A stretch of 64,000 nucleotides of DNA, taken from positions 124,001-188,000 of the forward strand of contig NZ_AP014635.1 of assembly GCF_001547935.1 (NCBI RefSeq), given 5' to 3'. Of the stretch, positions 12,550-58,774 are shown piece by piece. The DNA comes from Vibrio tritonius. GTDB lineage: Bacteria > Pseudomonadota > Gammaproteobacteria > Enterobacterales > Vibrionaceae. The notes below the pieces were generated by a model, which worked only from the letters and a program-made list of their open reading frames with translations, did not search any database and had not been told where the DNA came from. Numbering within the stretch: the first letter of the stretch is position 1; every line of letters starts with the position of its first letter. The translations under genes were made by a program, and so were the position numbers.

Positions 12550-13734
12550 TTAATTAGAATGGATGTCAGCAAACTCATCAATAAAGGTATTCACAATTTG
12601 TTTGCCATCAAATTGAGCCAGAGAGCGCGCTACGCAGTCATTGTAGACGTCATTCTGCTTCGCATTTAAAGCGAACCACATCTTCTCGGCTAATGCTTCT
12701 GGGGTCATCTCAGCTAAGTATTGACCAAGCTCTCCTTGCATAATGTCAGTCACACCGCCTGGGCAGTTGGTTGCGACTACCGTGGTACCGCACGCAAGTG
12801 CTTCAATTATCACCATTCCCAACCCTTCAGAACGGGAACTTAGCACAAATAAATCAGCATGATGGAACCAGGCATAAGGGGGATTTTGCGCGCCTTTGAA
12901 AAATACACGATCACGTAGCTGCAGCTCATCAACCAGCTTTTCTAAGCGCTCTCTTTCTTTACCATCACCGACAATCACCAAGTCTTGTGCTATCTCATGT
13001 TGTTGTATCAAACGATGGTAAGCATTAATCAGCAAAGGAAAATTCTTCACAGGATTGAGTCGACCTAACCCCAAAATAAAAGGTTTGGAGTGAAGTGTTT
13101 CACGAGAACCCACCGGATGAGATTCAATGCGTTCGAACTCTATAGGGTTGGTAATTAGTGCCATCTTCGCTGGCGTTATTTTGTGATGTTGTGTCATCTG
13201 ACCAAAGCTTTCCAGTGCGCCTTTCGAGATGCAAACAACATTACGGTTGCTGTACAACTGCGAAAAAGCCCAACGAGATAGAAAGCCATAGTGTTCTTGA
13301 GCTTGTGTGCTTTCGCAGACAAATACAAAACGAGGATCTCGCAACGGCCAAACATGCTCAAAGGTGCCGTGACCACGAAAGATAATTAAATCAAACGGTT
13401 TTCCCGCTTCTTTTTCCATTTGTGCTAGCTTTTTAGCAAAGATTCTTGCTTCGGCATAAGCAAAAAAGAGCGAGTAAGTCTTACGCATCAAGAGGTTGGA
13501 AAAACGGCATAAGATTAGCCACAAAATCCCAATACCAGTTTGTAGAACGCCTCTTTTTACATCAATCAGAGAAACTGGAATCGCGGGGTTGTCTGGTTTT
13601 AATTCAACACGGCGATTTTTGAGATAGATCAGATCTACCTCATGACCATTATTATGATAGGCGCTCGCTAGATTGACAGCGACACGCTCCATACCACCAA
13701 TTTTAAGACTGTTGACAACTACCGCGATTTTCAT
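12550..13734 (-). CDS. Glycosyltransferase family 4, LPS core operon
   Basis: About 394 residues from MKIAVVVNSLKIGGMERV (start at 13734; an ATG four codons upstream is also open). The GGMER motif in the first 20 residues, the donor domain FILGLGRLNPVKNFPLL, IVGDGKERERLEKL and SRSEGLGMVIIEALACGTT (E-x7-E) identify a retaining GT4. It is the last gene of the lpxM-like/waaF/waaL operon, and its start lies inside the waaL 3' end. Expected to add an outer-core sugar. The stop is less than 30 bases from the end of repeat cluster 1, and no terminator is visible in between. Confidence 0.85.
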   Translation of the reverse strand: MKIAVVVNSLKIGGMERVAVNLASAYHNNGHEVDLIYLKNRRVELKPDNPAIPVSLIDVKRGVLQTGIGILWLILCRFSNLLMRKTYSLFFAYAEARIFAKKLAQMEKEAGKPFDLIIFRGHGTFEHVWPLRDPRFVFVCESTQAQEHYGFLSRWAFSQLYSNRNVVCISKGALESFGQMTQHHKITPAKMALITNPIEFERIESHPVGSRETLHSKPFILGLGRLNPVKNFPLLINAYHRLIQQHEIAQDLVIVGDGKERERLEKLVDELQLRDRVFFKGAQNPPYAWFHHADLFVLSSRSEGLGMVIIEALACGTTVVATNCPGGVTDIMQGELGQYLAEMTPEALAEKMWFALNAKQNDVYNDCVARSLAQFDGKQIVNTFIDEFADIHSN

Positions 13735-14548
13735 TGTTTGTCTCATCTGTATGTGTTGGGAAAAGATGATGTGTTATAGCAAAAGTATAGAAAGCAGCCA
13801 TAAATACGTTATGAGTCAATACTCCGTATGTGCGGAAGTTAAATGATTCAAATCCATTGATAGTAAGCCAGTAAACGACAATACATAAAGCTAGCAGTAT
13901 CCAGTGCTCTGAATGTGGAATATGGTTCCTAAGCTTAACTAATGAACATAGCATAACAATGTACGTTCCGTTTAAAATAGCAAAGCCAAAAAGCCCATAG
14001 GTGACAAGGGCATCCATGTGGAAACTGTGTAAATGTCGAAGACCAACGATAATGTCATAGTGTTCATTTATACGTTCAGCAAAAACTTGTGAGAGCATAA
14101 TAACAGCAGCAGGACCTCGCTCTCCAACACCAATAAATGGATGATCAGCTATCCATTTTGAGGCTTCTATCCATGAGTTTATCCGTATACCTATGTTGGA
14201 CATAGGTATATTGTGCCAATCGAAATTTAAGAGTTTTTGGACGGTGTTTGTGTCGCTTTGATTAAAACGATCAAGTATGACAGGGAGTAGGCAGTAGCCA
14301 ACGAGAGAGATCAGAACAATAGTAGCAACATAAGAAATGATGAGTTTTATTGCACCTTTATGGCCATAAGCTATTTTATGAAGGAATGGGAATAAAACAG
14401 CGATCATTAATATACCTAGAAAAACCATTCTAGATTGAGATATGACGGTTATAGTTATAAAAAAGATAGCAAATAGGGCTAGAACTAAAGCTGTTATTAA
14501 ACGGATTTTGGTAAATTCATATTTTTTGGAATTTAAATAAAAAAACAA
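13703..14548 (-). pseudogene. waaL: O-antigen ligase WaaL, C-terminal part (frameshifted)
   Basis: 281 codons, if counted from a TTG, of a polytopic membrane protein in the Wzy_C/WaaL superfamily. It has several hydrophobic segments, a large periplasmic loop with the family-typical RINSWIEASKWIADHPFIGVG, and the conserved His-containing RHLHSFHMDAL. It lacks the N-terminal membrane helices, which are encoded in another frame just upstream. The two frames overlap at a run of seven T (minus strand, 14539-14545). One extra T would restore a single protein of about 450 residues, a normal WaaL length. So this half has no good start of its own: TTG, no ribosome site. Confidence 0.75.
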
Positions 14549-15069
14549 AAACCAAACAGGCTTAGTATAGAAAAAATACCACCAAACATTGAGGTATATT
14601 GAGCATTTTTGATGTCGAAGTCAACTCTGTCCCCATTAAGCCCTCTCATGAAACTGTCAATAAAATCAGATTTTATTGACATCCCCAATATAAAACTCGC
14701 GGCAAATAGGATAAACAATAAATATATGGATTTTGGTTTACCTCTTAGCCAGTAAGCCATGGGAATAAAAATAAATAGCCTAGCTGCTCTATCAATTTCA
14801 GGGAGGTCTTTAGCATATTGTGGAATGACAGATAAGCTATTTATCCAACTAATAATTGTGGCTACTATAGCTAAACCTAACATTATAAACATTGGTTCTT
14901 GAAATATTTTATTGCGATAATAGAAAAATATCGGCAAAGAACCAATTAAAAATAGAGCCCGGAAAAAACCACTAACTTGAGGAAAAGGAATAGAAAATAG
15001 CACATATCCAAAAATAGCCAATAGCATGATTAACTGATAACGTTCATGCTCAAAAATATTTTTTATCAT
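14533..15069 (-). pseudogene. waaL: O-antigen ligase WaaL, N-terminal part (frameshifted)
   Basis: 178 residues with about five membrane segments, starting MIKNIFEHERYQLIMLL. The start overlaps the waaF stop by four bases (ATGA), so its translation is coupled. It terminates shortly after the T7 run, at TAA 14533-14535, where the downstream frame takes over. The run reads T-TTT-TTT in the zero frame, which is also the form of a -1 ribosomal slip site. The state may be a true null mutation, a phase-variable switch, programmed frameshifting, or a sequencing error in a homopolymer. WaaL joins undecaprenyl-linked O-antigen to lipid A-core on the periplasmic side. Confidence 0.75.
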
Positions 15070-19617: not shown

Positions 19618-20439
19618 ATGAAGAACGCTGATTTTTTCGAGGTAAAAGAGCCCTCAATTGGTGGTTTAGTCAACTTCTTGAGGTATATATATGCCCAAAA
19701 GAAAATCATAGTGTGTTTGACCTTTCTTAGTGCCCTTGGGGGGTGGCTATATTGTCAATATGCCCAGAATAACTGGATTGTACAAGCGACGGTAGTCGAG
19801 CCAACTAAACATGATATGAAAGACCTTTTTGTAAAATTGGGGGCCATAAATTTCATTTTCGATGAAACTTTAGATTTATCTCATAAAAGCAATGAGATAA
19901 AATATAACACAATGTTACTAGATCAAATTGAAAGTGAAAAAGTTTTTAATGATTTTATACTAGAGTTCGGCAATAGGAATAATCAAATTAATTTCAATAA
20001 ATTAAATAACAAACAAGCAGTATTTTCTTATGAAGAATTGAAAGATAAAAATAAATATAGAGTATTAATAAGTTCTAGACAGAAAAGGAATGATCCTGAA
20101 ATTCTTACAGGATATATCAGATATGTAAATGATAAGGTATTAAAAAATATCAAACAGGACTTGTTTTCAGTTTTAGAGTTTAAAAAAAATGAGTTAGAGT
20201 CTAGGAAATTAATGACAAAAGATAATCTACTAACATTAGGTAACATGATTAGAACTATCGATCTTATATCTCTAAAGGATGTAAATGTAAAAACATACAG
20301 ATTGGTTTCAAATCTGCCTAAACCTTCATTGTCTTGGCCTAATAAGAAGTTAATAATGACATTTTCTATCTTTGTAGGATTGTTTATTTCAATGGTTTTT
20401 ATTCTAATATTAATGGCTTTTAAAGAATCAAATGAATAA
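19618..20439 (+). CDS. wzz: Wzz-type chain-length determinant (polysaccharide co-polymerase)
   Basis: 273 residues with the two-membrane-segment layout of Wzz proteins. TM1 is near residues 33-51, then a long, charged periplasmic region (about 52-240) with coiled-coil-like stretches. TM2 is near 242-266, preceded by the proline-containing NLPKPSLSWPNKK, where Wzz proteins carry a Pro-rich segment. It would set O-chain modal length by acting with the Wzy encoded at 25-26 kb. No kinase domain, unlike Wzc at 40.7 kb. AT-rich, like the following genes. Eight-base overlap with wzx. Confidence 0.82.
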   Translation: MKNADFFEVKEPSIGGLVNFLRYIYAQKKIIVCLTFLSALGGWLYCQYAQNNWIVQATVVEPTKHDMKDLFVKLGAINFIFDETLDLSHKSNEIKYNTMLLDQIESEKVFNDFILEFGNRNNQINFNKLNNKQAVFSYEELKDKNKYRVLISSRQKRNDPEILTGYIRYVNDKVLKNIKQDLFSVLEFKKNELESRKLMTKDNLLTLGNMIRTIDLISLKDVNVKTYRLVSNLPKPSLSWPNKKLIMTFSIFVGLFISMVFILILMAFKESNE

Positions 20440-21838
20440 AGATGTAATCATACTTGCTTTGGGAAAAGTAACACAAGTAGCTATATCTCTAGCTAGTATT
20501 AGGATTATGACTGAATGGCTTAGTGAAAAAGAGATTAGTAATTATTATTTGCTAATTAGTTTAGTGTCACTTTTTGGTTTTGTATTATATAATTCATTTG
20601 GTCAATATTATGCTCGTTTTTTATTAGAGTGGAAAAGAAGAAGTGTTTTAAAATTAATAACAATTTCATTTATATGGTATAGGCTATATACAGTTCCTTT
20701 GGTCTTATTTATATCATGGGCGGTTTTTTACCTTTTAAACTATGAGAATAGTTTTAATTTTATACAATATTCAACATGTATAGTTCTCAGCTGTATATCT
20801 AGTTCTTTTGGATTCCTTATTAGTAGTGTTAACATTCTTTCTTATAGAAGAGATTTTGTCTTATATACAATATATCAGCTAATATTAGGTCTTGTTCTAT
20901 CAATATTATTATGCATTACATTGGGATACAACGGTACATATTGGCTAGTTGGACAGTATATATCGCAGATGATTTTTATCCCGAAGCTTTATAGCATTGT
21001 CTGTAGTGATGAACATATTAAAAAAGAAAAAAGTTTTTTAGACATTGTAAATAGAAGAGAATTATTTGTTTTCTGTGCTCCCGTGATATTTACACTTTTC
21101 TTACAATGGGGTAGTTCCAATCTATACAGATTTATTGTGGAATTTAACTATGGGCCTATCGTATTTTCACAAATTGCTGTTGGTTTGGCTTTAGCTAATT
21201 CAGTATTTAGAATAATGGAATCTTTATTTAATCAATATGTTAATCCTATTTTTTATAAAAGGATTTCAAATGTGAAAAATGAACAGAGAGCTGAAGTTTG
21301 GAATGACATAGCGAAAAAAATAATACCATTATATATTATAATGGCAATGTTTTTGTGTGGCAGTTCAAGATTTATAACGCAGATTTTAGTATCAAATACC
21401 TATCATGATGCATATAAATACGTAATTATTGGTGCATTAATAGAATTGTTTAGAGTCCTTAATAATTTGTTTTACTTAGTATCTCAGTCTGAAGTTAAAA
21501 CAGGAAGTACGATATATCCATATTTAATTTCAATAATATATATCATTATTTCTTTAACACTGTTTGACTACTCTAATCATATAGAGCTGGTTGCAGTTAA
21601 TGTTATGATTGCATCTGCATTATCAAGTGCTTTTATGTATTATATGATGAAAAGAATATCCGAAATTAAAATAAACATTGTTGAATTATCATTAGCAGTT
21701 TTGTTTTCCCTACCACTTATTATACCAGGGTTTTATGATTTTCATAATTTAGCTATTCAAGTTTTTTCTTTAATTATATCTGTATTATACTTGATTGGTT
21801 TATTTCTTTGGTTTACGAAAAAGAGAAACTATAAATGA
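20432..21838 (+). CDS. wzx: O-antigen flippase Wzx-like
   Basis: 468 residues, almost entirely hydrophobic, with about 12 predicted membrane segments and short charged loops, as in the MATE-like polysaccharide exporter superfamily. Wzx flips undecaprenyl-pyrophosphate-linked repeat units across the inner membrane. Family members diverge strongly, so the call rests on length, topology and position between wzz and glycosyltransferase genes. Strongly AT-rich. It overlaps the wzz 3' end by eight bases and the next gene by four. It could be the partner of the Wzy at 25.2-26.3 kb. Confidence 0.8.
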   Translation: MNKDVIILALGKVTQVAISLASIRIMTEWLSEKEISNYYLLISLVSLFGFVLYNSFGQYYARFLLEWKRRSVLKLITISFIWYRLYTVPLVLFISWAVFYLLNYENSFNFIQYSTCIVLSCISSSFGFLISSVNILSYRRDFVLYTIYQLILGLVLSILLCITLGYNGTYWLVGQYISQMIFIPKLYSIVCSDEHIKKEKSFLDIVNRRELFVFCAPVIFTLFLQWGSSNLYRFIVEFNYGPIVFSQIAVGLALANSVFRIMESLFNQYVNPIFYKRISNVKNEQRAEVWNDIAKKIIPLYIIMAMFLCGSSRFITQILVSNTYHDAYKYVIIGALIELFRVLNNLFYLVSQSEVKTGSTIYPYLISIIYIIISLTLFDYSNHIELVAVNVMIASALSSAFMYYMMKRISEIKINIVELSLAVLFSLPLIIPGFYDFHNLAIQVFSLIISVLYLIGLFLWFTKKRNYK

Positions 21839-22875
21839 TTAAGGTTTGTTTAGTTGTTAGTGACTATTTAAAAAATAATAGAATATTTGATGAAAGTGGG
21901 ATTCATCGTGATGATATATTTGACCGTTTTTGTGTATTAAAAAAGAAATTTAAATCTTTGGGTTTTGATTTACAAACTCAAGATATCAATACTATAAACG
22001 AATCTGATATAGTTTTGTACGCTAGTAATATGCCACAAGATTTACCTGAGAGAAATAAGATTGATAAGTCTTATATCATTTTGTCTGAGAGTGAGTTTAT
22101 TCGTCCAGATAACTACGATTTAGAAAACCATAAATATTTTAAACGAATATTTACATGGAAAGATGATATTGTTGATGGTGAAAAATATATAAAGCTAAAT
22201 TATGCACATAAGATACCAAATAGTATAAATATAAATAATAATAAAGATAAGTTGTTAGTATTAATTTCAGCAAACAAAAAGCCCCCATTCAGTAAAAATA
22301 AAGATCTATATTCTGAGAGAGTCTCTGCAATAAGATGGTTTGAGAAAAATGCAGCTAATGATTTTGATCTTTACGGGATAGGCTGGGATAGGTTTAGATT
22401 TTACGGACCAAGATTAATTAGAGTATTGAATAGAGCTCCTTTTATAGGTAAGTTGATTTATAAGATATTCAAACTAGGTTATCCTTCTTACAAGGGAATG
22501 GTGGATAATAAAAAAGAGGTGATGGAAAAATACAAGTTTTCAATATGTTATGAAAATGCGAAAGATATTCCTGGGTATATTACAGAAAAAATATTTGATA
22601 GTTTTTTTGCTGGGTGTGTACCAGTTTATTTTGGAGCTGATAATATTGATAAACATATACCAAAAGAATGCTTCATCGATATGAGGTCATTTGATAATTA
22701 CGAAGATTTGTATCATTTTTTAAAAAACATGCCGAATGAAAGGTATGAAGAGTACTTGAATGCTATATTTAATTATATTCAAAGCCGTAGTATTTATCCA
22801 TTTTCCAGTGAAGGTTTTTCAGACACTATTATTGAAATAATAAAAAAGGACTATAATAAAAATGATAATTTCTAG
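21835..22875 (+). CDS. Glycosyltransferase family 10 (alpha-1,3/1,4-fucosyltransferase-type)
   Basis: 346 residues. The C-terminal half has the GT10 donor-binding signature: KYKFSICYENAKDIPGYITE, then KIFDSFFAGCVPVYFGA and KECFIDMRSF (about 230-285), close to the Helicobacter FucT motif (K-F-x-x-C-F-E-N ... G-Y-x-T-E-K-x-x-D). GT10 enzymes move L-fucose from GDP-fucose to O3 or O4 of GlcNAc, making Lewis-type branches. Because GDP-colitose genes lie at 55-62 kb, the donor may be colitose (3-deoxy-L-fucose). The gene overlaps wzx by four bases and the GT11 gene by 14, so expression is coupled. The donor is inferred. Confidence 0.88.
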   Translation: MIKVCLVVSDYLKNNRIFDESGIHRDDIFDRFCVLKKKFKSLGFDLQTQDINTINESDIVLYASNMPQDLPERNKIDKSYIILSESEFIRPDNYDLENHKYFKRIFTWKDDIVDGEKYIKLNYAHKIPNSININNNKDKLLVLISANKKPPFSKNKDLYSERVSAIRWFEKNAANDFDLYGIGWDRFRFYGPRLIRVLNRAPFIGKLIYKIFKLGYPSYKGMVDNKKEVMEKYKFSICYENAKDIPGYITEKIFDSFFAGCVPVYFGADNIDKHIPKECFIDMRSFDNYEDLYHFLKNMPNERYEEYLNAIFNYIQSRSIYPFSSEGFSDTIIEIIKKDYNKNDNF

Positions 22876-23719
22876 AATAAATGGAGGCTTAGGAAACCAG
22901 ATGTTTCAATATGCTATCGCAAGAAGTATTGCGATGCATCATTCCGTCGATTTTAAATTAGACATATCTTCATTTGAAAAAAATAAACAATTTGGATTTC
23001 GACTTAACAAGTTAAATGCAAAAATAGATATTGCAAAAAAAGAAGAAATTGAAAAGTATAAGGGAAGCGAGTCTAAAATATCTAAAATAATTAGAAGGTT
23101 TCCTTTATTAAGTGATGTTATATATCCTAAATTATATAGAGAAAAAGAAAGAACAGTATATGACATCGATGTCTTTAATAGTTCCAGTTTGTATTTGGAT
23201 GGTTATTGGCAGAATGAAAAGTATTTTAATAAAATAAAAAATGAATTATACGAAGAGTTCATGCCCAAAGGTAATTTAGATGAAAAAATCATCGAATATG
23301 AAAGAGAAATAAGACAATGCACCGCGGTCAGTATTCATGTTAGGCGAGGAGATTATTTAAATATCCCAGATATTGGCGTTCTCGATTTGAATTATTACAT
23401 GTCATCTGTTGAATATATATTGAGCCTTTTTGATAATGTAAAGTTTTTCATATTTTCCAATGATATTTCTTGGTGTGAAAATAATTTTAATTTTATAAAA
23501 AACAAGGTTTTTATATCGGGTTCGTCCAGTGAGATTGACGATTTGTATCTGATGAGTTTATGTGATCATAACATAATTGCGAATAGCTCTTTCAGTTGGT
23601 GGGGAGGGTGGTTGAATAAAAATGAAGATAAGGTAGTAATTTCACCTAAAAATTGGATGAAAGTAAATCCTAAGGATCATAAATGGGTTCCAGATACATG
23701 GTTGCAATTTCCAAATTAA
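22862..23719 (+). CDS. Glycosyltransferase family 11 (alpha-1,2-fucosyltransferase-type)
   Basis: 285 residues with the GT11 motifs in order: MIISRINGGLGNQMFQYA (residues 1-18), SIHVRRGDYL (about 156-165, the H-x-R-R-x-D GDP-binding motif) and ANSSFSWWGGWLN (about 238-250). Such enzymes put fucose on O2 of galactose. Relatives in bacteria with colitose O-antigens are thought to use GDP-colitose. Adjacent and overlapping with GT10, it suggests a doubly branched, Lewis b/y-like structure. Low GC. Its last 22 bases are shared with the acyltransferase gene. Confidence 0.9.
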   Translation: MIISRINGGLGNQMFQYAIARSIAMHHSVDFKLDISSFEKNKQFGFRLNKLNAKIDIAKKEEIEKYKGSESKISKIIRRFPLLSDVIYPKLYREKERTVYDIDVFNSSSLYLDGYWQNEKYFNKIKNELYEEFMPKGNLDEKIIEYEREIRQCTAVSIHVRRGDYLNIPDIGVLDLNYYMSSVEYILSLFDNVKFFIFSNDISWCENNFNFIKNKVFISGSSSEIDDLYLMSLCDHNIIANSSFSWWGGWLNKNEDKVVISPKNWMKVNPKDHKWVPDTWLQFPN

Positions 23720-24177
23720 TATATAAGTTATCTTTCAAAATATATAATATAAGAGCTTGGCTTATAAAACATAGCTTTCATAGTTGTGGAAAAGGTTTTA
23801 AAGCGTGGGGGATTTTTTCTATAAAAAATCCGGACAAGCTTACCGTAGGAAATTACGTTTCAATTAATGATTTTGTATATATTAATGCGAAAGGTGGAGT
23901 TAGTATTGGTAACGATGTTGCCTTGTCTGTAGGATGCAAAATTATATCTACCTCTTTAGATTATAACAACATTGGGCCTAATAAAATTCATATTGATAAA
24001 GAAATAATAATAGGTAATAAAGTACAAATAGGTGCTGGCGCAATTATATTACCTGGTGTAACGATTGGAAATAATGTTGTAGTTGGTGCTGGAAGTGTAG
24101 TGACTGAAAGTATAGGAAACAATACCATAGTGGCTGGAGTCCCTGCTAGAAAAATTAGGGATTTAAATAATGAATAA
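23698..24177 (+). CDS. Hexapeptide-repeat acyltransferase (O-acetyltransferase-like)
   Basis: About 159 residues from MVAISKLIYKL (23698); an earlier in-frame ATG at 23683 sits deeper in the GT11 gene. The protein is a left-handed beta-helix of imperfect [LIV]-G-x4 hexapeptides (SIGNDVALSVG, IIIGNKVQIGAGAIILPG, TIGNNVVVGAGSVVTES), ending AGVPARKIRDL. This is the usual WcaF/NodL/maa-like transferase form using acetyl-CoA. It probably O-acetylates a sugar of the repeat unit. The N-terminal 30 residues are basic and hydrophobic, perhaps membrane-associating. Confidence 0.85.
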   Translation: MVAISKLIYKLSFKIYNIRAWLIKHSFHSCGKGFKAWGIFSIKNPDKLTVGNYVSINDFVYINAKGGVSIGNDVALSVGCKIISTSLDYNNIGPNKIHIDKEIIIGNKVQIGAGAIILPGVTIGNNVVVGAGSVVTESIGNNTIVAGVPARKIRDLNNE

Positions 24178-25177
24178 AAATGAACTTTTAGTTTCTGTGA
24201 TAATGCCTGTATTTAATTCAGAATCTCATTTGTCTGAAGCAATAGAAAGTATACTAAGCCAAAACTTCAAACAATTTGAACTAATAATTGTAAATGATGG
24301 TTCTACAGATAACAGTTTACGCATTATACAATCTTTCGTTGATCGTGATAGTAGAATTATTCTCATTAATCAGAGTAATTTAGGACTACCTATAGCATTA
24401 AACAATGCTATAGGGGTTTCTAAAGGGAAATATATTGTAAGAATGGATGCAGATGACATCTCTTTACCTGGGCGACTTGAAAAGCAGGTTGGTTTTATGG
24501 AGTGTAATAAGGAAGTTGACATTTGTGGTTGTTGGGCTCAACTTATTGACGATCATGGAAATAAGTTATCTAGGACCATGAAACATCCAGAAGATGATTA
24601 TTTTCTTAAAGCTAAGCTTATTTTTTCTGTTTGTTTTATTCACCCGTCAGTAATAATGAGGAAGTCATCTTTAGATAATTATAACTTACGATATAATACA
24701 AGCTATAGATTCAGTCAAGATTATGAACTATGGTCTAAGGCTAGTGAATACCTGACTTTTTCTAATATCCAAGAGTGCTTATTAATGTATAGGATTAATA
24801 GTGAAGGGATTACGAAAAAAATGGCTAACAATAAAAATGATATAAAAATGGAGATGATTAAATCTATACAATATTCTATGTTGGAAAAATATGGCATTCA
24901 CCTTAATACTGAGCTTTACCATATTCACTATAACATATCAGTAAATGACAGAATGATTAATAGTGATATTAATCATGAGTGCCTTAATAGTTATATGGAT
25001 GAAGTAATAAATCAGGTTGGGTGCGATAAAGAAAAATTAATAAAAAGGGTATTATTTAAAAAATATATTATTTATATGTATTTTTCTTTTAGGAAAGATA
25101 AGTTAAATTTTTTAAAATTATTTAAATATAAAAATAGTTATTTATCATTGCTATACTATTTGCGTGGTTTAATATGA
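24170..25177 (+). CDS. Glycosyltransferase family 2
   Basis: 335 residues. An N-terminal GT-A domain begins LVSVIMPVFNSESHLSEAI, with IIVNDGSTDNSL (about 41-52) and the metal-binding DxD in VRMDADDISLPGRLEKQ (about 92-108). HPSVIMRKSSL and FSQDYELWSKASEYL complete the acceptor-side motifs. The C-terminal 100 residues are charged and AT-biased with no recognised domain. An inverting transferase for one linkage of the O-unit. Overlaps the genes on either side (8 and 4 bases). Confidence 0.88.
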   Translation: MNKNELLVSVIMPVFNSESHLSEAIESILSQNFKQFELIIVNDGSTDNSLRIIQSFVDRDSRIILINQSNLGLPIALNNAIGVSKGKYIVRMDADDISLPGRLEKQVGFMECNKEVDICGCWAQLIDDHGNKLSRTMKHPEDDYFLKAKLIFSVCFIHPSVIMRKSSLDNYNLRYNTSYRFSQDYELWSKASEYLTFSNIQECLLMYRINSEGITKKMANNKNDIKMEMIKSIQYSMLEKYGIHLNTELYHIHYNISVNDRMINSDINHECLNSYMDEVINQVGCDKEKLIKRVLFKKYIIYMYFSFRKDKLNFLKLFKYKNSYLSLLYYLRGLI

Positions 25178-26340
25178 TATGTAAAAGAGAAAATTGCGAT
25201 AATCGTTATATAGAATTTATTGATATTTTTTGTTTGTTCATTATATCTATGAGCTTTGCATTTCCCGTTAGAATGCCATATATAGAATCAATATATATTT
25301 TCGATATACTAATTTTTCTATATGTCTCAATCACATTGTTTATAACTGGTAATCCAGTTAAGCTAGTAACAAAAAAAATAATTTATCTTTCTATCGCTAC
25401 AATATCGCCTTCTCTTTTCTTGATTACTTACAGCAATAGTATAAATTTATCCTTAATTTTCATATCTCAGTATTTATTTACAGCTGTATTTTTATTTTTG
25501 TTTTTAGATAGGATTTTTGTTAGAAAAAAATTTAATATTTTCTTAAGATTCACGATATTTAATATGTCTGTGGTTTTTCTTGTGTATTTATTTGATGTTA
25601 AGATTTTTGGATCTTATAAGATATTTAGTCAGGATTGGGGAGGGAGATTCTATTTGACAGATTTTACTCCTAATGACGTGGGACACTATTTTTTGTTCTT
25701 TATGTTTTGCTGTGATTGGATCTGGAGTAAGAGGCCGGGAATAAGATATTTGTTTTATATTATATCTATTATAACTTTTATTTTCACTAAATCTAAGACC
25801 GTTTATCTTCAAATAGTAATTTTCTTTCTGTCTAAAGTAAGAAAAGTATACGTAGCTATATCTGGATTTGTGATTTTTTTATCTATAGTCTTTTTTATTC
25901 CTTTTTCTGAATTAACTTTTTTTACCAGAGATTTTTCGGCAGATAAGTCTAGTAACAGTATTAGACTTGATATGATAAATAACGCAGTTGATTATGTGTA
26001 TAAATCAATATTTCATCCAGCTTATTATTCTAAAGTTAATGTTGATGGTGCTCATCATATTGCGGTTAGTTCGCATAATATAATAGCGTCATATATTGTT
26101 AATTTTGGATTTATTAGTTTCACTATTCTGATTTTATTATCTATTTTGTTTTTGTTTGTTTATAGGAAAAATTATTATATTAAGTATCTTAAATATATTA
26201 TTTTTATAGATATTTTCACTTTAATGCTTAATCCCATGCTAAGTGCAAGAGTTCTTTGGTTTCCATTATCTACATATATATATATAATAATTTTAAGTAA
26301 TTCTGAAGGAAGATACCTTGAAAGTGATAATGCTTATTAA
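25174..26340 (+). CDS. wzy: O-antigen polymerase Wzy-like
   Basis: 388 residues with about 10-12 hydrophobic segments. A large loop (about residues 255-300, TRDFSADKSSNSIRLDMIN through VNVDGAHHIAVSSHNIIASY) carries Arg and His residues, where Wzy and WaaL proteins have their functional periplasmic loop. Wzy proteins share little sequence, so the call rests on topology, the R-x-D and S-H-N elements, and position in a Wzx/Wzz operon. Very AT-rich. Overlaps the following GT4 by 23 bases. Confidence 0.78.
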   Translation: MICKRENCDNRYIEFIDIFCLFIISMSFAFPVRMPYIESIYIFDILIFLYVSITLFITGNPVKLVTKKIIYLSIATISPSLFLITYSNSINLSLIFISQYLFTAVFLFLFLDRIFVRKKFNIFLRFTIFNMSVVFLVYLFDVKIFGSYKIFSQDWGGRFYLTDFTPNDVGHYFLFFMFCCDWIWSKRPGIRYLFYIISIITFIFTKSKTVYLQIVIFFLSKVRKVYVAISGFVIFLSIVFFIPFSELTFFTRDFSADKSSNSIRLDMINNAVDYVYKSIFHPAYYSKVNVDGAHHIAVSSHNIIASYIVNFGFISFTILILLSILFLFVYRKNYYIKYLKYIIFIDIFTLMLNPMLSARVLWFPLSTYIYIIILSNSEGRYLESDNAY

Positions 26341-27430
26341 TACCCTTTGTAAAGGAGGGGCAGAGAGAGTCGTTACTGATTTGTTTAACCGATTTCACAA
26401 CGAAGGGTATCCCTGTGACTTAGTCACATTGGAGAGTGTAAAAGATAATCCGTACACTTTATCCAAGAATAACATTCATACTTTATCAAATTCCAGTACT
26501 AATCGAGGAATCATTAACTTCATCAAATTACCTATACTTGCATTTAGGTTAAGCAAATTAATAAAAAATAATAATGTTAACGTTGTACAAAGTCACTTAT
26601 ATAGAGCTAATTATGTTAATATCCTAGCAAAAATACTATTTAGAAGTAAACATAAAGCCCAAATATTCAATCATTCAATAACTAGTCGATTTTATAATGA
26701 AGGCTTGTCTGGTAAGATTAATTTGTTTTTGGTTAAGTTGCTTTATAAGTTTGCTGATGAAATTTATGGAGTATCAAGTAGAGTTAATATAGATATTAAT
26801 GAGGTGTTACCATATACTGTGAACGAAATGACAAAAGTTATTTCTAATCCTGTAAGTATAAAAAAAGCAGAAATGTTAGGTATTGTTGAACCTACAAAAT
26901 TTATATTTTCATCAAATTTGAAGTATATTTGCGTTGTTGGGAGGCTAATTAAGATTAAACGATTCAATGATGTAGTTTCTTCAATGAGATTTCTCCCAGA
27001 TAATGTTAATCTAATTATCATTGGCGATGGACCAGAACATGAATCGATTAAAAATTTAGCCTCAAACTTGGGGCTGTTAGATAGAGTTCATTTTGTTGGT
27101 TGGGTAAATAATCCATACTCATTTATTTCTAGATGCCTTTGCCTAGTATGCTCATCAGAAAGCGAAAGTTTTGGGAATGTTATAATAGAAAGCTATGCGT
27201 GTGGAGTTCCCGTAATATCTAGTAGGTGTGGTGGTCCTGAAGAAATTATAGATGATGAATTTGGCTTGCTATTTGATATTGGTAATGTAAAGCAGTTATC
27301 AGATAATATTAAAATTTATTTGAATAACGAAGAAGTGCGATTAGAGCACATTAACTCGTCAAAAGATAAAATCTCTAAATATGATGAGGATGTAGTTTTT
27401 GATGAGTATAAAAAAGCACTTTTTAGGTAG
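26318..27430 (+). CDS. Glycosyltransferase family 4
   Basis: 370 residues. Begins MKVIMLINTLCKGGAERVV (GGAER acceptor-side motif). The donor domain has CVVGRLIKIKRFNDVV, LIIIGDGPEHESIKNLA and SSESESFGNVIIESYACGVP (E-x7-E), followed by SSRCGGPEEII. A retaining enzyme for the O-unit. Starts inside the wzy 3' end. Base composition is still low GC but rises toward the next gene. Confidence 0.88.
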   Translation: MKVIMLINTLCKGGAERVVTDLFNRFHNEGYPCDLVTLESVKDNPYTLSKNNIHTLSNSSTNRGIINFIKLPILAFRLSKLIKNNNVNVVQSHLYRANYVNILAKILFRSKHKAQIFNHSITSRFYNEGLSGKINLFLVKLLYKFADEIYGVSSRVNIDINEVLPYTVNEMTKVISNPVSIKKAEMLGIVEPTKFIFSSNLKYICVVGRLIKIKRFNDVVSSMRFLPDNVNLIIIGDGPEHESIKNLASNLGLLDRVHFVGWVNNPYSFISRCLCLVCSSESESFGNVIIESYACGVPVISSRCGGPEEIIDDEFGLLFDIGNVKQLSDNIKIYLNNEEVRLEHINSSKDKISKYDEDVVFDEYKKALFR

Positions 27431-27437
27431 AGATTTT

Positions 27438-28556
27438 ATGAGTTTAAAAAAAATACTTATAGTTGTTAACGTCGATTGGTTTTTTGTGTCACATCGATTA
27501 CCAATTGCTTTAAAAGCCATAGAAATGGGCTATGAAGTCCACTTAGCTGCAAAGGATACCGGTCGATTTGGTGAATTAAAAAACCTTGGGATTATAACAC
27601 ATAACGTAAATTTTGGTCGTGGTAAAATTAGTTTACTTAACGAGATATACACCTTGTTTTCTTTACTTAGTCTTTTGAGATTAATACGTCCTAATTTAGT
27701 TCATGCAGTCACTATCAAGCCGGTACTTTATGCAGGTATTATTAAGAAATTGTTTATGAGTAATATGCCATTTATTGCAGCCATATCCGGTTTAGGTATA
27801 AGTTTTTCTAGTGACAAGAAAGGAATAGTTCCTTATATAGTTAAAGCTCTTTATAGGTTAGCTTTAAGTTCTAATACGACAAAAGTTATTTTTCAAAACC
27901 AAGATGACAGGGAAACGGTTTTGTCACTCTGTCCAAAGATTATTGGAAATGATTATCTTATTAGAGGTTCTGGGGTTGATCTGAATGAGTATAGTTGTGT
28001 CGACGAATCTAAAGAAAATATAGTAGTAATGGCTTCAAGATTGCTAGTTGATAAAGGCTTGTATCAATTCCATGCTGCAGCAAAAATAGTGAAGCAACGC
28101 TTGCCAAGGGCTAGGTTTATTTTGGCTGGAACTCCAGATGAGGGTAGTTTAAATAGTATTTCATTAGACACATTAGAAAAATGGAAGAGTGAAGGCATTG
28201 TTGAGCCTATTGGTTTCTGTTCTGATATGTCTCAGTTACTTCAAATGTCAAATCTAGTTGTGTTTCCATCTTTCTATGGTGAGGGAGTACCTAAGATCTT
28301 AATCGAAGCTGCTGCTAGTGGTAGAGCTGTAATAACGACCGATAATCCGGGATGTAAAGATGCCATTATTCATGGAGAGACAGGTTTATTGGTACCAAAA
28401 AAAGATTCTGAAGCTTTAGCAGATGCCATTATCAACCTTTTAGATGACGATGCTAAGAGAATTGAGATGGGTATGAAAGCCCGTGAATTTGCGAAAAGAG
28501 AGTTTGATATAAAAGAAGTAATCAATAAGCATATCGATATTTACCAGTCGTTCTAA
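27438..28556 (+). CDS. Glycosyltransferase family 4, last gene of the O-antigen operon
   Basis: About 372 residues from MSLKKILIVVNVDWFFVSHR (27438). An upstream start at 27399 would overlap the preceding gene. The N-terminus with FFVSHRLPIALKA and the HAVTIKPVLYAGI segment is characteristic of a GT4 group common in O-antigen loci. The donor domain has ASRLLVDKGLYQFHAAA and PSFYGEGVPKILIEAAASGR. A retaining transferase, possibly adding the second sugar to the lipid-linked primer, as for relatives that use 6-deoxy-N-acetylhexosamine primers. Ends 20 bases before a hairpin. Confidence 0.86.
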   Translation: MSLKKILIVVNVDWFFVSHRLPIALKAIEMGYEVHLAAKDTGRFGELKNLGIITHNVNFGRGKISLLNEIYTLFSLLSLLRLIRPNLVHAVTIKPVLYAGIIKKLFMSNMPFIAAISGLGISFSSDKKGIVPYIVKALYRLALSSNTTKVIFQNQDDRETVLSLCPKIIGNDYLIRGSGVDLNEYSCVDESKENIVVMASRLLVDKGLYQFHAAAKIVKQRLPRARFILAGTPDEGSLNSISLDTLEKWKSEGIVEPIGFCSDMSQLLQMSNLVVFPSFYGEGVPKILIEAAASGRAVITTDNPGCKDAIIHGETGLLVPKKDSEALADAIINLLDDDAKRIEMGMKAREFAKREFDIKEVINKHIDIYQSF

Positions 28557-28616: not shown

Positions 28617-30485
28617 CTACACCCTGTTAGTCGTATAACCAGTTGGGGCATCTTTTAAAATTCGAATTGCGCAATTTACATCAAAGTTGTGACAACAATC
28701 ATCTAATTCAATTAGTAGATTGTTCATTTGTTCCCAAGATAATTTTTCTTCACAAGCAGTCATGATTTTTTTATGACTAGTGCCTTCGACATTCTCACCA
28801 ATCAGTAGCTCTTCATATAATTTTTCACCTGGTCTAAGCCCAGAAAATCGGATTTCAATATCACCTTCGTCTGATTTTCCATCATAATATTCTTGCATGC
28901 CCATTAGGTGTATCATTCTTTTGGCTAAATCCAGAATCTTAACTGGTTCACCCATATCTAATACAAACACTTGACCATTTATACCCATTGCTCCTGCTTG
29001 TATGACTAACTGTGCGGCTTCAGGTATAAGCATAAAATAACGAATTATATCTGGGTGGGTTACAGTTACAGGACCGCCGAGGCGTATTTGTTTTTTGAAT
29101 AAGGGAACAACGGAGCCCGACGAGCCTAAAACATTACCAAATCTAACCATGGTGAACGTTGTTTGGCTGTTTTTATCCGCAAGCGCTTGAAGAACAAGCT
29201 CTGCTAGGCGTTTTGTAGCGCCCATTACATTGGTTGGGCGTACTGCTTTATCGGTAGATATTAAAGTGAAGTTTTTTACTCCGGCTTTTATAGCTGCCTG
29301 AGCACAACCTAAAGTGCCAAATACATTATTTCGCATCCCTTCAATGACATTGTCTTCCACAATTGGAACATGTTTGTAAGCAGCTGCGTGATAAACGGTT
29401 TCGACTTTATGTAATTTCATTAGATTGAGAACCCTGTTCTCATTTTGAACAGATCCCAGTGCAGATACTATTTTTGTCGAAATTTTAAGATTTTTCTTAA
29501 GTGTATTTATTTCTTGGTCTATTGCATATAGATTGTATTCATTTAATTCAAATAATATCAGTGTTGATGGTCTTTGAATCAGTATTTGTCTACAAAGTTC
29601 AGAGCCAATGGAGCCACCAGCTCCTGTAACCATAACAGACTGATTAACAATATTCTTCTTGAGGAGATTCATATCAGGGTCGACTGGTGCTCTACCTAAT
29701 AAGTCAGCGATATCTAAATCTTGTACATCTGTCGGTTTAGCTCTTCCTGCTGCAATGTCTTCAACACATGGAACTGATTGAACCTCAATGGGCCAATGAG
29801 AAATTTTTTCAACCAGTCTTAATCTCTCTCCTATCTTTACATTATTGACAGCTAACAATAATTTTACAGGTTCATATAGTGACTGTAATTTACTGAATTC
29901 ATTGCTGTTATGTACTTTTATACCAAATATTATTTGCCCGATTTTATGCGGGTCATCGTCTAACATTATGACAGGGTGGTAATCATTACCTTGAATAAGA
30001 GCATAAGCTAATTCTCTACCTGTAGCACCTGCGCCATAGATAAAAACATTAGGTTTACGCCTTTTAAAGTAGTGGTAGTAAATTGTTCTAAATAAAATAC
30101 GTGGCCCACCTAGAGTGAGTGTCGCTAATCCGACATAGATGAATGGCACGCTGCGAGGAATGAACGCTTGGAAAAAAAAGCCACTGAGTGCAAAAGTTAA
30201 AGCAGATACAATAACCGATATAAAAATATATCCAATTGCGGGTAATGTCATATATCTCAGAACAGCTCTATACATACCTAAGCGAACGAAGCAGTAAAGA
30301 GTGATGGCTAGCGTCATAAAAAAAGCGCACAACTCTTGTAATCCTGCTTGGAAAGTGAAGGAGTTAAGTCTTAATGCAACAGATATATAAAGGGAGAACA
30401 TGATAGCAACACAATCGTATGCAATTGTAATTCCGCGTTTATGCATACGTTTTGCATTAAGAATATAATTTATTGATTTCCACAT
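28617..30485 (-). CDS. WbpM/FlaA1/CapD-type UDP-GlcNAc 4,6-dehydratase, membrane-bound
   Basis: About 622 residues from MWKSINYILNAKRMH (30485); the frame is open to 30626, but the extra 47 residues are unlike the family. N-terminal about 160 residues: four membrane segments. Then one Rossmann fold (FIYGAGATGRELAYAL, about 140-155) and a catalytic SDR fold starting VTGAGGSIGSELCRQIL. STDKAVRPTNVMGATKRLAE shows the Met-for-Tyr form of the active site known in WbpM-type enzymes. It makes UDP-4-keto-6-deoxy-GlcNAc for QuiNAc or FucNAc. Divergent from the epimerase and PGT genes that probably complete the pathway, and convergent on the O-antigen operon. Confidence 0.92.
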   Translation of the reverse strand: MWKSINYILNAKRMHKRGITIAYDCVAIMFSLYISVALRLNSFTFQAGLQELCAFFMTLAITLYCFVRLGMYRAVLRYMTLPAIGYIFISVIVSALTFALSGFFFQAFIPRSVPFIYVGLATLTLGGPRILFRTIYYHYFKRRKPNVFIYGAGATGRELAYALIQGNDYHPVIMLDDDPHKIGQIIFGIKVHNSNEFSKLQSLYEPVKLLLAVNNVKIGERLRLVEKISHWPIEVQSVPCVEDIAAGRAKPTDVQDLDIADLLGRAPVDPDMNLLKKNIVNQSVMVTGAGGSIGSELCRQILIQRPSTLILFELNEYNLYAIDQEINTLKKNLKISTKIVSALGSVQNENRVLNLMKLHKVETVYHAAAYKHVPIVEDNVIEGMRNNVFGTLGCAQAAIKAGVKNFTLISTDKAVRPTNVMGATKRLAELVLQALADKNSQTTFTMVRFGNVLGSSGSVVPLFKKQIRLGGPVTVTHPDIIRYFMLIPEAAQLVIQAGAMGINGQVFVLDMGEPVKILDLAKRMIHLMGMQEYYDGKSDEGDIEIRFSGLRPGEKLYEELLIGENVEGTSHKKIMTACEEKLSWEQMNNLLIELDDCCHNFDVNCAIRILKDAPTGYTTNRV

Positions 30486-30697
30486 AGCCAAACTACTTAT
30501 CTTTCTGTTAGATATCAGTGTGATGTTTACTGATTGCTGTCGCTTCGATGTGCTCAGATTGTAGTTGTCTTGCGGCTTTTTTGCTAGTATCAAGCGCGAG
30601 TTAGGTCGTAAAGACGGTAAACCCACACATTGTGAAGATTATTCTTTTTGAATTGCGTGGCGTGTCACGTGCTTAAGTAATGCCGATAGGAGAAAGG

Positions 30698-31654
30698 ATG
30701 GTGAACATCTTTATAACAGGTATCACCGGGTTTGTTGGAAGTGCTGTTGCAAAAGAAGCTATGGCCCGGGGGATTCATGTTAAAGGGCAAGCCTCCCGAC
30801 CAACCAATTTATTATCATGTAATGTAACGTCTCTTTACATAGATCGTAAAACAGATTGGTCAGATTGTTTTAGCAACATTGATTGCGTTGTACACTGTGC
30901 TGCTAGAGTGCATCAAATGGATGACGATAGTGCTTCACCGCTTGACCAATATCGAGAAGTGAACACGCTTGGTACTCTTAATTTGGCAAGACAAGCTGCT
31001 GCGAGTGGTGTAAAGCGTTTTGTGTTTATCAGTTCTATAAAAGTAAATGGTGAATATACATCTGCAAATCAGCCCTTCATTGAAGAGGTTACCTATCCTC
31101 CCGTCGACCCATATGGGCTGAGCAAATTTGAGGCTGAAGAACAATTAATGAAGCTGGCTAAAGAAACTGATATGGAAGTTGTAATTATAAGACCTCCGCT
31201 AATTTATGGACCTGGTGTAAAAGCCAACTTTTTATCCATGATGAATTGGGTATATAAAAAACTACCATTACCGCTAGGTCGTATCCATAATCGACGAAGT
31301 CTTGTGTTTGTCGATAATCTTGTTGATCTAATATTGACAACGTTAAGCCACCCATTGGCAGCAAACCAAACTTTCTTAGTCTCTGATGGCCATGATGTTT
31401 CTGTAACACAGTTGCTGCAAACTATCGCTCATGATATGAACGTTCGTTCTACATTGCTTCCAATTCCTCAGTCAATACTTTACATATCATTGAGCTTGTT
31501 AGGAAAAAAGAATGTTGCGCAAAAACTGGTTGGCTCTTTACAAATAGATATTTCGAAAACCAAAGAACGCTTGGGCTGGACACCTAAATATTCTTTTACT
31601 GTAGGAGTCCATAGAACCGTAACAGATTATTTGGTTAAGCAAGAGAGTAAATGA
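30698..31654 (+). CDS. NAD-dependent epimerase/reductase (WbpV/WbeV-like SDR)
   Basis: About 318 residues. The start at 30698 is chosen because AGGAG (30688-30692) sits five bases upstream; an earlier in-frame ATG at 30680 lacks a site. Extended SDR: ITGITGFVGSAVAKEA (GxxGxxG), VVHCAARVHQM, FISSIKVNGE, and the catalytic Tyr-x3-Lys in PYGLSKFEAEEQL. Placed next to a WbpM-type dehydratase and a small phosphoglycosyltransferase, it matches the Vibrio/Pseudomonas set that makes UDP-D-QuiNAc (4-keto reduction). A UDP-hexose 4-epimerase is the alternative. Confidence 0.85.
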   Translation: MVNIFITGITGFVGSAVAKEAMARGIHVKGQASRPTNLLSCNVTSLYIDRKTDWSDCFSNIDCVVHCAARVHQMDDDSASPLDQYREVNTLGTLNLARQAAASGVKRFVFISSIKVNGEYTSANQPFIEEVTYPPVDPYGLSKFEAEEQLMKLAKETDMEVVIIRPPLIYGPGVKANFLSMMNWVYKKLPLPLGRIHNRRSLVFVDNLVDLILTTLSHPLAANQTFLVSDGHDVSVTQLLQTIAHDMNVRSTLLPIPQSILYISLSLLGKKNVAQKLVGSLQIDISKTKERLGWTPKYSFTVGVHRTVTDYLVKQESK

Positions 31655-31658
31655 CAAC

Positions 31659-32204
31659 ATGCTTCGTTTGATAGATTTTTTTGCCGCATTATGTGGTTTT
31701 ATTGTGCTCCTACCTATTTTTTTAATTCTGTATGTAATGGGGCTATTCGATACAGGTTCTCCATTGTTTTTTCAAGAACGGGTTGGTAAACAACAAAAAC
31801 CTTTTACTTTAATTAAATTTCGAACGATGCCTGTCCACACAAAGTCTGTTGCAACTCATCTAGTTGGTTCTAGTTCCGTCACCAAGCTAGGGCAGTTTTT
31901 ACGTCGTACTAAACTAGATGAACTTCCTCAGTTACTAAATGTGATAAAAGGAGACATGAGTTTGGTCGGCCCTCGTCCATGCCTCTTCAATCAAGATGAT
32001 GTTATCCGTGAAAGGTTGGAGAGAAACGTATTTGATGTTCGTCCTGGTATCACGGGTTTGGCGCAAATCCGCGAAGTAGATATGTCTAGACCTGTTGAGT
32101 TAGCTCAACTTGATCAAGAGATGATTAGAACGATATCGGTAAAACAGTACTTTTCGTACATAATAAAAACAGTGCTTGGCGAGGGGTCAGGCGATCGAGT
32201 GTAA
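31659..32204 (+). CDS. Small initiating phosphoglycosyltransferase (monotopic PGT, PglC/WbeW-like)
   Basis: 181 residues: one N-terminal membrane segment (about 3-29), then the bacterial sugar-transferase domain with PLFFQERVGKQQKPFTLIKF, RRTKLDELPQLLNVIKGDMS (catalytic D-E at about 88-89), LVGPRPCL and VRPGITGLAQI. Lacking the extra membrane segments of WbaP, it is of PglC size. It moves a sugar-1-phosphate from UDP-sugar to undecaprenyl phosphate to start the O-unit; the upstream genes suggest a 6-deoxy-N-acetylhexosamine. It follows the epimerase by four bases and ends at a strong terminator. A second initiator, WecA, is encoded at 52.8 kb. Confidence 0.9.
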   Translation: MLRLIDFFAALCGFIVLLPIFLILYVMGLFDTGSPLFFQERVGKQQKPFTLIKFRTMPVHTKSVATHLVGSSSVTKLGQFLRRTKLDELPQLLNVIKGDMSLVGPRPCLFNQDDVIRERLERNVFDVRPGITGLAQIREVDMSRPVELAQLDQEMIRTISVKQYFSYIIKTVLGEGSGDRV

Positions 32205-40271: not shown

Positions 40272-40286
40272 AAAGGAAATCGCGAC

Positions 40287-40727
40287 ATGTTTGATAACAT
40301 TTTGGTGGTCTGCGTTGGTAATATTTGCCGCTCTCCCATTGGAGAGCGCTACTTACAGCAGTTATTTCCTAATAAACAGATTGCCTCAGCCGGCCTTGCC
40401 TCGAAAAAAAGCCATTTAGAAGGCAAACCTGCCGATGCCAGCGCGCAGCTGGTGGCGCAAGAGCATGGTCTCGATTTAACTGGGCATAAGTCACAGCAAC
40501 TGACATCCGCTTTGTGTGCTCAATACGATTTGATCTTGGTAATGGAAAAAGGTCATTTAACGGCTTTAAACGATATTGCCCCAGAGGCAAGAGGCAAAGC
40601 CATGTTATTTGGCCAGTGGATTGGGCAAAAAGACATTCCCGATCCTTACCGCCAAAGTAAAGAAGCCTTTGATTACGCCTATCAATTAATTGCTCAAGCG
40701 GCTGATGCTTGGGCTGCCAAACTTTAA
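40287..40727 (+). CDS. wzb: Low-molecular-weight protein-tyrosine phosphatase
   Basis: 146 residues. The P-loop C-x5-R is CVGNICR (residues 9-15) followed by SPIGERYL. The general-acid Asp lies in DIPDPYRQSKEAF (about 113-125). Wzb removes phosphates from the C-terminal tyrosines of Wzc in the cytoplasm; the cycle controls polymer export and length. Sixteen bases from wza and 16 from wzc, one operon. Confidence 0.96.
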   Translation: MFDNILVVCVGNICRSPIGERYLQQLFPNKQIASAGLASKKSHLEGKPADASAQLVAQEHGLDLTGHKSQQLTSALCAQYDLILVMEKGHLTALNDIAPEARGKAMLFGQWIGQKDIPDPYRQSKEAFDYAYQLIAQAADAWAAKL

Positions 40728-40742
40728 TACGATTAGAAGATT

Positions 40743-42920: not shown

Positions 42921-42940
42921 CAATAGGATAGTTGACTAGC

Positions 42941-44008: not shown

Positions 44009-44059
44009 TTCACCTCATTCTGGTTACCTCTTTATATTTTAGTTGGCTAAGGCAAAAAA

Positions 44060-45501: not shown

Positions 45502-45502
45502 A

Positions 45503-49310: not shown

Positions 49311-49320
49311 ATAGATTAAC

Positions 49321-51635: not shown

Positions 51636-51681
51636 TTTTGAAATGGTGAAATAACAGTTAAATTGATTAGTAGGGTCTAAT

Positions 51682-56679: not shown

Positions 56680-56681
56680 TA

Positions 56682-58765: not shown

Positions 58766-58774
58766 TTATATTTT

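Follow-up and report, generated by a model that had tools for sequence, protein, structure and literature searches.

Predicted colitosylation of a Lewis b-like branch by adjacent GT10 and GT11 glycosyltransferases in a Vibrio tritonius polysaccharide operon

We analysed a 64,000-nucleotide stretch of the Vibrio tritonius genome (the window; contig NZ_AP014635.1, positions 124,001 to 188,000 of the forward strand, in a 5.22-Mb genome of two contigs) that carries adjacent GT10 and GT11 glycosyltransferase genes in a polysaccharide operon and, farther downstream, genes for GDP-colitose biosynthesis. All coordinates below are those of the window. The operon consists of nine plus-strand genes (19618-28556) encoding, in order, a wzz-like protein, a wzx-like protein, GT10, GT11, an acetyltransferase, a GT2 glycosyltransferase, a wzy-like protein, and two GT4 glycosyltransferases. 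As the original prediction had stated, the GT10 gene (21835-22875; 346 amino acids) and the GT11 gene (22862-23719; 285 amino acids) share 14 bases (22862-22875), and their products scored above the cut-offs of PF00852 and PF01531, respectively. Because the neighbouring operon genes overlap too, each with the next one if read from the first start codon, the overlap reflects a local habit. The same 14-base overlap is also kept in relatives from Sulfurovum (locus L019) and Arcobacter (L041).

The GT10 protein matched Glyco_transf_10 (PF00852) with 51.8 bits (cut-off 23.9), a match confined to residues 224-309, and aligned with the Helicobacter pylori fucosyltransferase 2nzw over residues 223-312 (53 bits). 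The motif GYITEKIFDxFFAGC was invariant across 21 aligned GT10 rows. The GT11 protein matched Glyco_transf_11 (PF01531) with 120.1 bits (cut-off 23.9) and contains HVRRGD, a motif of the HxRRxD type, at residue 159; no sequence relative was found in the PDB, where the one match was a lysozyme (E 0.87). A PF00852 search of the whole genome returned this single GT10, and the sole genome match of the GT11 protein at E <= 1e-10 was itself. We predict that GT10 is an alpha-1,4- (or alpha-1,3-) colitosyltransferase and that GT11 is an alpha-1,2-colitosyltransferase.

The gmd, colC, and colD genes, whose presence in the window (colC as a colC-like gene) had been noted before and was confirmed, lie 31.8 kb downstream of the GT10/GT11 pair. 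Together with gmm and manC, they occupy 55567-60642 on the plus strand, followed by a phosphomannomutase-like gene (60642-62081; PF02878) and, on the minus strand, by manA for mannose-6-phosphate isomerase (62158-63354; TIGR00218, 297.6 bits). Gmd (GDP-mannose 4,6-dehydratase; 55567-56679) matched TIGR01472 with 553 bits (cut-off 415) and is 75% identical to the K-12 protein. Gmm (GDP-mannose mannosyl hydrolase of the Nudix family; 58775-59236) matched NF011963 with 193.8 bits (cut-off 146), and ManC (mannose-1-phosphate guanylyltransferase; 59227-60642) matched TIGR01479 with 757 bits.

For comparison of ColD, ColC, GT11, and GT2, we used the Escherichia coli O55 O-antigen cluster (L010). The labels WbgN, ColC, ColD, and WbgO are ones that we assigned to L010 from its adjacent O55-family wzx/wzy genes and the O55 gene order; the record itself names an alpha-1,2-fucosyltransferase, a protein of the GDP-L-fucose synthase family, a DegT family protein, and glycosyltransferases. 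The L010 ColD assignment was confirmed by a full-length match to the solved ColD (884 bits). The window ColD (GDP-4-keto-6-deoxymannose 3-dehydratase; 57596-58765) is 58% identical to O55 ColD and matched the solved E. coli ColD (2gms/WbdK) with 512 bits, compared to 192 bits for the next dehydratase kind (E1/RfbH). Its FSHHIST segment aligns with YSHHIAT of the E. coli enzyme, so that the SHHI stretch is conserved. The mark of ColD-type dehydratases is a catalytic His that replaces the aminotransferase Lys (PMC8987622). By homology, we conclude that the window protein is a genuine ColD.

The window reductase (56682-57599) shares 50% identity with O55 ColC, compared to 40% with K-12 Fcl, and scored 322 bits on the Fcl model NF047922, under the cut-off of 500. 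In a quick reductase tree that included one very long row (L091), it fell in a clade of 26 rows (support 100) with O55 ColC, and K-12 Fcl was placed outside. The same clade also contained all 19 locus reductases labelled at a ColD locus and five from loci without ColD. By these comparisons, the window reductase is ColC (GDP-L-colitose synthase) and not Fcl. No second reductase of the Fcl/ColC type was found in the genome, where the next best match to the window ColC scored only 23 bits. Thus, the genome is predicted to be able to make GDP-colitose. The de novo route to GDP-fucose (Fcl) was not found in the genome; fucose salvage, a route that exists in the form of FKP of Bacteroides, was not searched for. 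Because the sole Fcl/ColC-type reductase groups with O55 ColC, no donor other than GDP-colitose is evident, which speaks against fucose. Of the two sugars that the original prediction had left open, fucose or colitose, this result retains colitose and argues against fucose.

The linkages can be approached through the GT11 and GT2 proteins. Over 295 columns, the window GT11 shares 37% identity with the O55 GT11, which we take to be WbgN. WbgN is an alpha-1,2-colitosyltransferase whose natural donor is GDP-colitose and that tolerates GDP-fucose (PMC12723683, PMC11987014), and it used type-1 chains only among the acceptors tried (PMC12723683). The window GT2 (24170-25177; PF00535) matched the O55 GT2 adjoining wzx with 40% identity over 215 columns (139 bits), compared to 73 bits for the other O55 GT2. 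From the O55 gene order, we presume that the GT2 adjoining wzx is WbgO. A quick tree of 39 GT2 proteins, which has long branches, placed this WbgO-like O55 GT2 and most GT2s from the gene cassettes described below in one group of 23 (support 89), and the other O55 GT2 and further GT2s from cassette loci fell outside. A DxDD motif was dropped as a GT2 discriminator, since it is present in both O55 GT2 proteins. O55 WbgO is described as a beta-1,3-galactosyltransferase acting on GlcNAc (PMC12552311), and the window GT2 is predicted to be a WbgO-like Gal-beta-1,3-GlcNAc synthase. The GT2, GT11, and GT10 trio would therefore fit Gal-beta-1,3-GlcNAc bearing alpha-1,2- and alpha-1,4-linked colitose; GT10 is predicted to be alpha-1,4-specific because O-3 of GlcNAc is occupied on a type-1 chain and O-4 is left. 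The alternative that survives best is colitose on a type-2 backbone (Gal-beta-1,4-GlcNAc), on which GT10 would be an alpha-1,3-colitosyltransferase and the product Lewis y-like. This possibility gains from the inclusion of both 1,3 and 1,4 enzymes in the GT10 family (PMC4202792) and from a Pfam match to just residues 224-309 of the window GT10, but we consider it unlikely, given that the operon GT2 is nearer to the WbgO-like (beta-1,3) O55 protein than to the other O55 GT2 and that WbgN takes no acceptors but type-1 chains (PMC12723683).

The gene arrangement recurs in relatives of the window GT10. Genome contigs were scanned with the 21-row GT10 alignment, and the best 80 of 278 relatives were taken; GT11 was scored as absent if none lay on the fetched stretch, so short contigs may conceal a GT11. 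A GT11 was present on the fetched stretch of 20 of the 80 relatives. In seven of these 20 loci (L019, L020, L021, L041, L057, L092, and L098), it came after GT10 in the same orientation, with an overlap or a gap of no more than 20 bases, and in L051 it lay 97 bases after GT10. A GT2 resembling that of the window (33% identity or more to the window protein or the O55 protein, over half its length) accompanied GT11 at 18 of 20 loci and was present at 4 of the 60 loci lacking GT11. In Psychromonas sp. RZ5 (L021), the order is gmd-colC-colD-wzx-GT10-GT11-acetyltransferase-GT2-GT4-GT4, which is the window order with the colitose genes in front, and the Sulfurovum (L019) and Saccharophagus (L020) loci read gmd-colC-colD-wzx-GT10-GT11-GT2. 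GT10, GT11, and ColD occurred together in four phyla (Pseudomonadota, Campylobacterota, Bdellovibrionota, and Melainabacteria), in three of them also with GT2.

A true ColD (best copy at least 61% identical; other matches 36-41%) was encoded anywhere in the genome of 30 of the 80 relatives. ColD was found in 15 of the 20 genomes with GT11 near GT10 and in 15 of the 60 others (p = 1e-4 in a one-sided Fisher test that ignores relatedness). The five GT11 genomes without ColD had Fcl-type matches (51-63% identity, two of which span only about 190 residues). Fcl-type genes were surveyed in 50 of the 80 genomes, namely the 30 with ColD, the five with GT11 but without ColD, and 15 others picked partly for a Fcl/ColC-family reductase already visible at the locus. 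A match was found in 16 of the 20 ColD-negative genomes surveyed, a number that carries this biased choice, and in all five GT11 genomes, a count free of it. Among the 30 ColD genomes, three had an Fcl-type match of at least 45% (L063, L081, and L095, the last over 142 residues beside ColD), L023 had a borderline 44% match beside its ColD, and L076 had no match. Because the GT10/GT11 pair also occurs with Fcl-type genes, its presence is not enough to identify the donor. Four Elusimicrobia GT10 loci (L047, L068, L082, and L094) encode a ColC-type reductase 55-57% identical to the window ColC and no ColD above 50%; the nearest ColD relative in these genomes is at most 39% identical, and the 39% DegT protein of the L047 genome, which adjoins a Fcl/ColC-family reductase, is perhaps a divergent ColD. 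Given these loci, ColD may be undercounted in some rows scored as lacking it.

In a GT10 tree of 82 rows, which omits L050 (over-long frame) and L018 (an intact 335-amino-acid frame that should have been kept), the window protein grouped with six others (support 92); of these seven, six have ColD and the seventh (L026) has an Fcl-type gene. On this tree, the ColD label changed 12 times, five of these changes being forced by starred branches, compared to 25.6 changes in shuffles, which implies that the label is clustered yet has switched repeatedly.

ColD and GT10 were also associated closer to V. tritonius. In a genus sample of 227 genomes, which includes that of the window, GT10 was found in four, ColD in four, and both in three (hypergeometric p = 8e-6, and p = 3.5e-4 when the window is left out). 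In the one genome with GT10 but not ColD (G124), a reductase with 73% identity to K-12 Fcl is encoded close to GT10. The GT10 of G107 has an intact 335-amino-acid frame, which strengthens the genus count slightly. GT11 was present in six of the 227 genomes, and GT10 and GT11 occurred together only in the genome of the window. Elsewhere in the genus, G088 (L100) has ColD (63%) without a GT10 of the window kind, and the L016 locus (G054) reads colC-colD-nudix-wzx-GT10 followed by a PF13524 glycosyltransferase instead of GT11, perhaps for a different second decoration. In an order sample of 394 genomes, GT10 was found in four and ColD in seven, and all four GT10 genomes have ColD; the three other than the window's are L021, L022, and L057 by coordinates, and this sample therefore overlaps the relatives sample and is not independent of it.

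An exploratory scan of all columns and residues in 46 GT10 rows, which excluded L063, L081, and L095 (ColD plus an Fcl-type match) and any row without a label, found that residue 123 best separates the donor labels. Phe occupies this position in 25 of 29 ColD genomes, and Fcl genomes have Tyr (12 of 17), Trp (3), Phe (1), or Leu (1). The four ColD exceptions, all with Tyr123, are the window, L019, L020, and L021. Three explanations are available: a tolerant window GT10, a residue 123 without decisive effect, or a wrong reading of the donor for GT10. L019-L021 have one reductase match each, which lies beside ColD and is 39-40% identical to K-12 Fcl. Because these only reductases lie beside ColD at such low identity to Fcl, a tolerant GT10 or a non-decisive residue 123 is favoured. 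For the wider set of relatives, we put at about even the chances that this branch of GT10, a fucosyltransferase family, transfers colitose and forms, with WbgN-like GT11 and mostly WbgO-like GT2, a recurring colitose-Lewis b cassette whose donor has switched several times, possibly as marked by Tyr or Phe at residue 123.

Taken together, these results make it likely that a doubly colitosylated Lewis b-like branch decorates an O-antigen (or capsule) repeat encoded by the window; the donor, linkages, acceptor, and product of GT10 and GT11 are those that we infer from sequence. ManA, the ManB-like phosphomannomutase, ManC, Gmd, ColD, and ColC would produce GDP-L-colitose, as their family membership suggests. 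In the cytoplasm, GT2 would make Gal-beta-1,3-GlcNAc on the lipid-linked repeat, GT11 would add colitose alpha-1,2 to Gal, and GT10 would add colitose alpha-1,4 to GlcNAc, after which Wzx would flip the unit and Wzy and Wzz would polymerise it. A Lewis-type branch, probably with colitose, had been put forward in the original prediction, and inference from ColC and ColD, the failure to find Fcl in the genome, the WbgN-like GT11, the WbgO-like GT2, and the recurring cassette supports it well.

Several observations weigh against a doubly colitosylated Lewis b-like branch. The colitose genes are 32 kb from the glycosyltransferase pair and adjoin another polysaccharide cluster. The window GT10 has Tyr123, otherwise typical of Fcl genomes, and the tree-aware test of Phe versus Tyr had too few pairs (five, on average 4.3 concordant and none opposite, p = 0.06-0.25). 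The tree-aware test of GT11 against ColD likewise had too few independent pairs (four on starred branches, median p = 1). Relatives with both GT10 and GT11 also occur beside Fcl-type genes (L026, L038, L041, L051, and L052), and one of them, L026, sits inside the window's own GT10 clade. GDP-fucose is also accepted by WbgN (PMC12723683), and the choice of alpha-1,4 over alpha-1,3 depends on the reading of GT2. Finally, the O-antigen ligase region is split into two overlapping minus-strand open reading frames (13703-14548 and 14533-15069), of which only the first has a Wzy_C match; the split may reflect a frameshift in the ligase gene, a sequencing error, or the presence of two genes. Elsewhere in the genome, outside the window, two more Wzy_C proteins score above the cut-off.

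The cluster near the colitose genes (39120-52431) starts with a wza-like gene and rmlB/rmlA/rmlC-like dTDP-sugar genes; it also encodes a Wzx-like protein of its own (49321), and Wzy_C matched weakly around 48675-49109. If colitose were destined for this second polysaccharide, GT10 and GT11 would be inactive or act elsewhere. The position of gmd-colC-colD, past this cluster with wecA and galU (54306-55202, plus strand; TIGR01099, 402.8 bits) between and 32 kb from the pair, speaks for such an arrangement. However, no GT10 or GT11 match was found among the scanned open reading frames of 39120-52431, GT10 and GT11 have one genome match each, their frames and motifs are intact, and the colitose genes of L019-L021 lie just upstream of wzx-GT10-GT11. 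This explanation is thus improbable. We rank next, and also regard as improbable, the use of GDP-fucose by the GT10/GT11 pair to make true Lewis b, with colitose used elsewhere. Tyr123, the five GT10 and GT11 relatives in genomes that have Fcl-type genes without ColD, and the tolerance of WbgN for GDP-fucose (PMC12723683) would agree with this explanation; against it, no Fcl was found in a genome in which ColC is the sole clear family member, salvage not having been searched for. That GT10 and GT11 colitosylate two different sites of the repeat without forming a Lewis tetrasaccharide is very improbable, since, although GT10 and ColD occur without a locus GT11 in 15 of 60 relatives, where GT10 may act alone, GT11 and GT2 recur as GT10 neighbours and the two known doubly colitosylated antigens share one Gal-GlcNAc-Col2 unit (PMC3210612).

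Among the remaining genes of the operon, three carry names that are weak labels. The wzz-like chain-length regulator (19618-20439) scored 36.9 bits on the NCBIfam Wzz(fepE) model, far under the cut-off of 300, and had no Pfam match. The putative wzx-like flippase (20432-21838; 468 amino acids) had no Pfam or NCBIfam match and is named from its position and size and from 29-37% matches in L016, L018-L021, and L057. The putative wzy-like polymerase (25174-26340) had a sub-cut-off Wzy_C match in the genome search (27.1 bits, cut-off 31.7) and no Pfam match to the open reading frame. The hexapeptide O-acetyltransferase (23683-24177; PF00132), whose real start is perhaps slightly later, has a counterpart with 54% identity at the corresponding position in L021. 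Both GT4 genes (26318-27430 and 27399-28556; PF00534) are read from TTG starts and may begin later; their homologues in L021 are 44% identical, downstream of GT2, and 48% identical, respectively. The RfaH 'ops' element GGCGGTAG was not found upstream of the operon; its one copy in the window, at 50424, is no more than chance expectation.

Downstream of the operon, 28617-32204 encodes a WbpM/FlaA1-like UDP-HexNAc 4,6-dehydratase on the minus strand (28617-30626; PF02719, 413 bits) and, on the plus strand, an NDP-sugar epimerase/reductase (30680-31654; PF01370) and a small initiating sugar-phosphate transferase (31659-32204; PF02397). This set could make and attach QuiNAc, a sugar of Vibrio cholerae O139. 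Upstream, a protein of the DUF3413-sulfatase family is encoded at 6329-8161, flanked by genes for a protein of the Kdo/WaaP kinase family and for a Kdo transferase.

Mimicry of host antigens, which the original prediction had offered, is not supported as an explanation of why the cassette exists. Genomes of Psychromonas, Sulfurovum, Gallionella, Sulfuriferula, Halothiobacillus, and Bdellovibrio, which are not known to have a Lewis-bearing host, combine GT10, GT11, and ColD. Since the cassette bacteria include ones with no obvious Lewis-bearing host, the cassette can be explained without mimicry, which need not be what drove the evolution of this Lewis b-type gene set. MsaFBP32 is a fish lectin. 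It belongs to the fucose-binding F-type family and also recognises colitose (PMC5712786), from which one may speculate that the cassette has some other role in marine hosts.

These results point to the likely enzymes behind an antigen that is known but rare, in which Gal-GlcNAc bears two colitoses, and the window GT10 is a candidate for colitose transfer. The relation between GT10 sequence and donor can now be tested directly with natural enzymes. WbgN, an alpha-1,2 enzyme, was the only colitosyltransferase named in the available text of the literature searched, and no GT10 colitosyltransferase was found there. WbgN was the first colitosyltransferase to be characterised, as reported by Wu et al. 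in 2016. The glycan type is already known, from O139 and Aeromonas trota; the novelty lies in the recurrence of the cassette and in a GT10 that probably transfers colitose.

In the known tetrasaccharide, the colitoses are present as Col-(1-2)-Gal and Col-(1-4)-GlcNAc. As the original prediction had noted, V. cholerae O139 carries a doubly colitosylated unit; this tetrasaccharide, in which Gal and GlcNAc are joined by two terminal colitoses, is also present in A. trota, where Gal-(1-3)-GlcNAc is described (PMC3210612). The O139 capsule/O-antigen resembles the predicted product in this unit, for which the window has ColD and ColC, and possibly in QuiNAc, which the WbpM-type set could make. It differs in the cyclic phosphate on the O139 unit and in the O-acetyltransferase of the window operon. 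The A. trota 1354 O-antigen shares Gal-(1-3)-GlcNAc with two colitoses and has no cyclic phosphate (PMC3210612), and differs in the Rha of its backbone. E. coli O55 has ColC, ColD, and GT11 in common with the window, as well as a GT2 from the same tree group, but no GT10 is annotated on the fetched stretch and its Wzx and Wzy are different. The H. pylori alpha-1,3/1,4-fucosyltransferases share the GT10 core, as the 2nzw alignment indicates, although only about 90 residues align by sequence and their donor is GDP-fucose. Psychromonas sp. RZ5 matches the window from wzx through GT10, GT11, acetyltransferase, and GT2 to the two GT4 genes; unlike in the window, gmd-colC-colD lies directly upstream of this series rather than 32 kb away.

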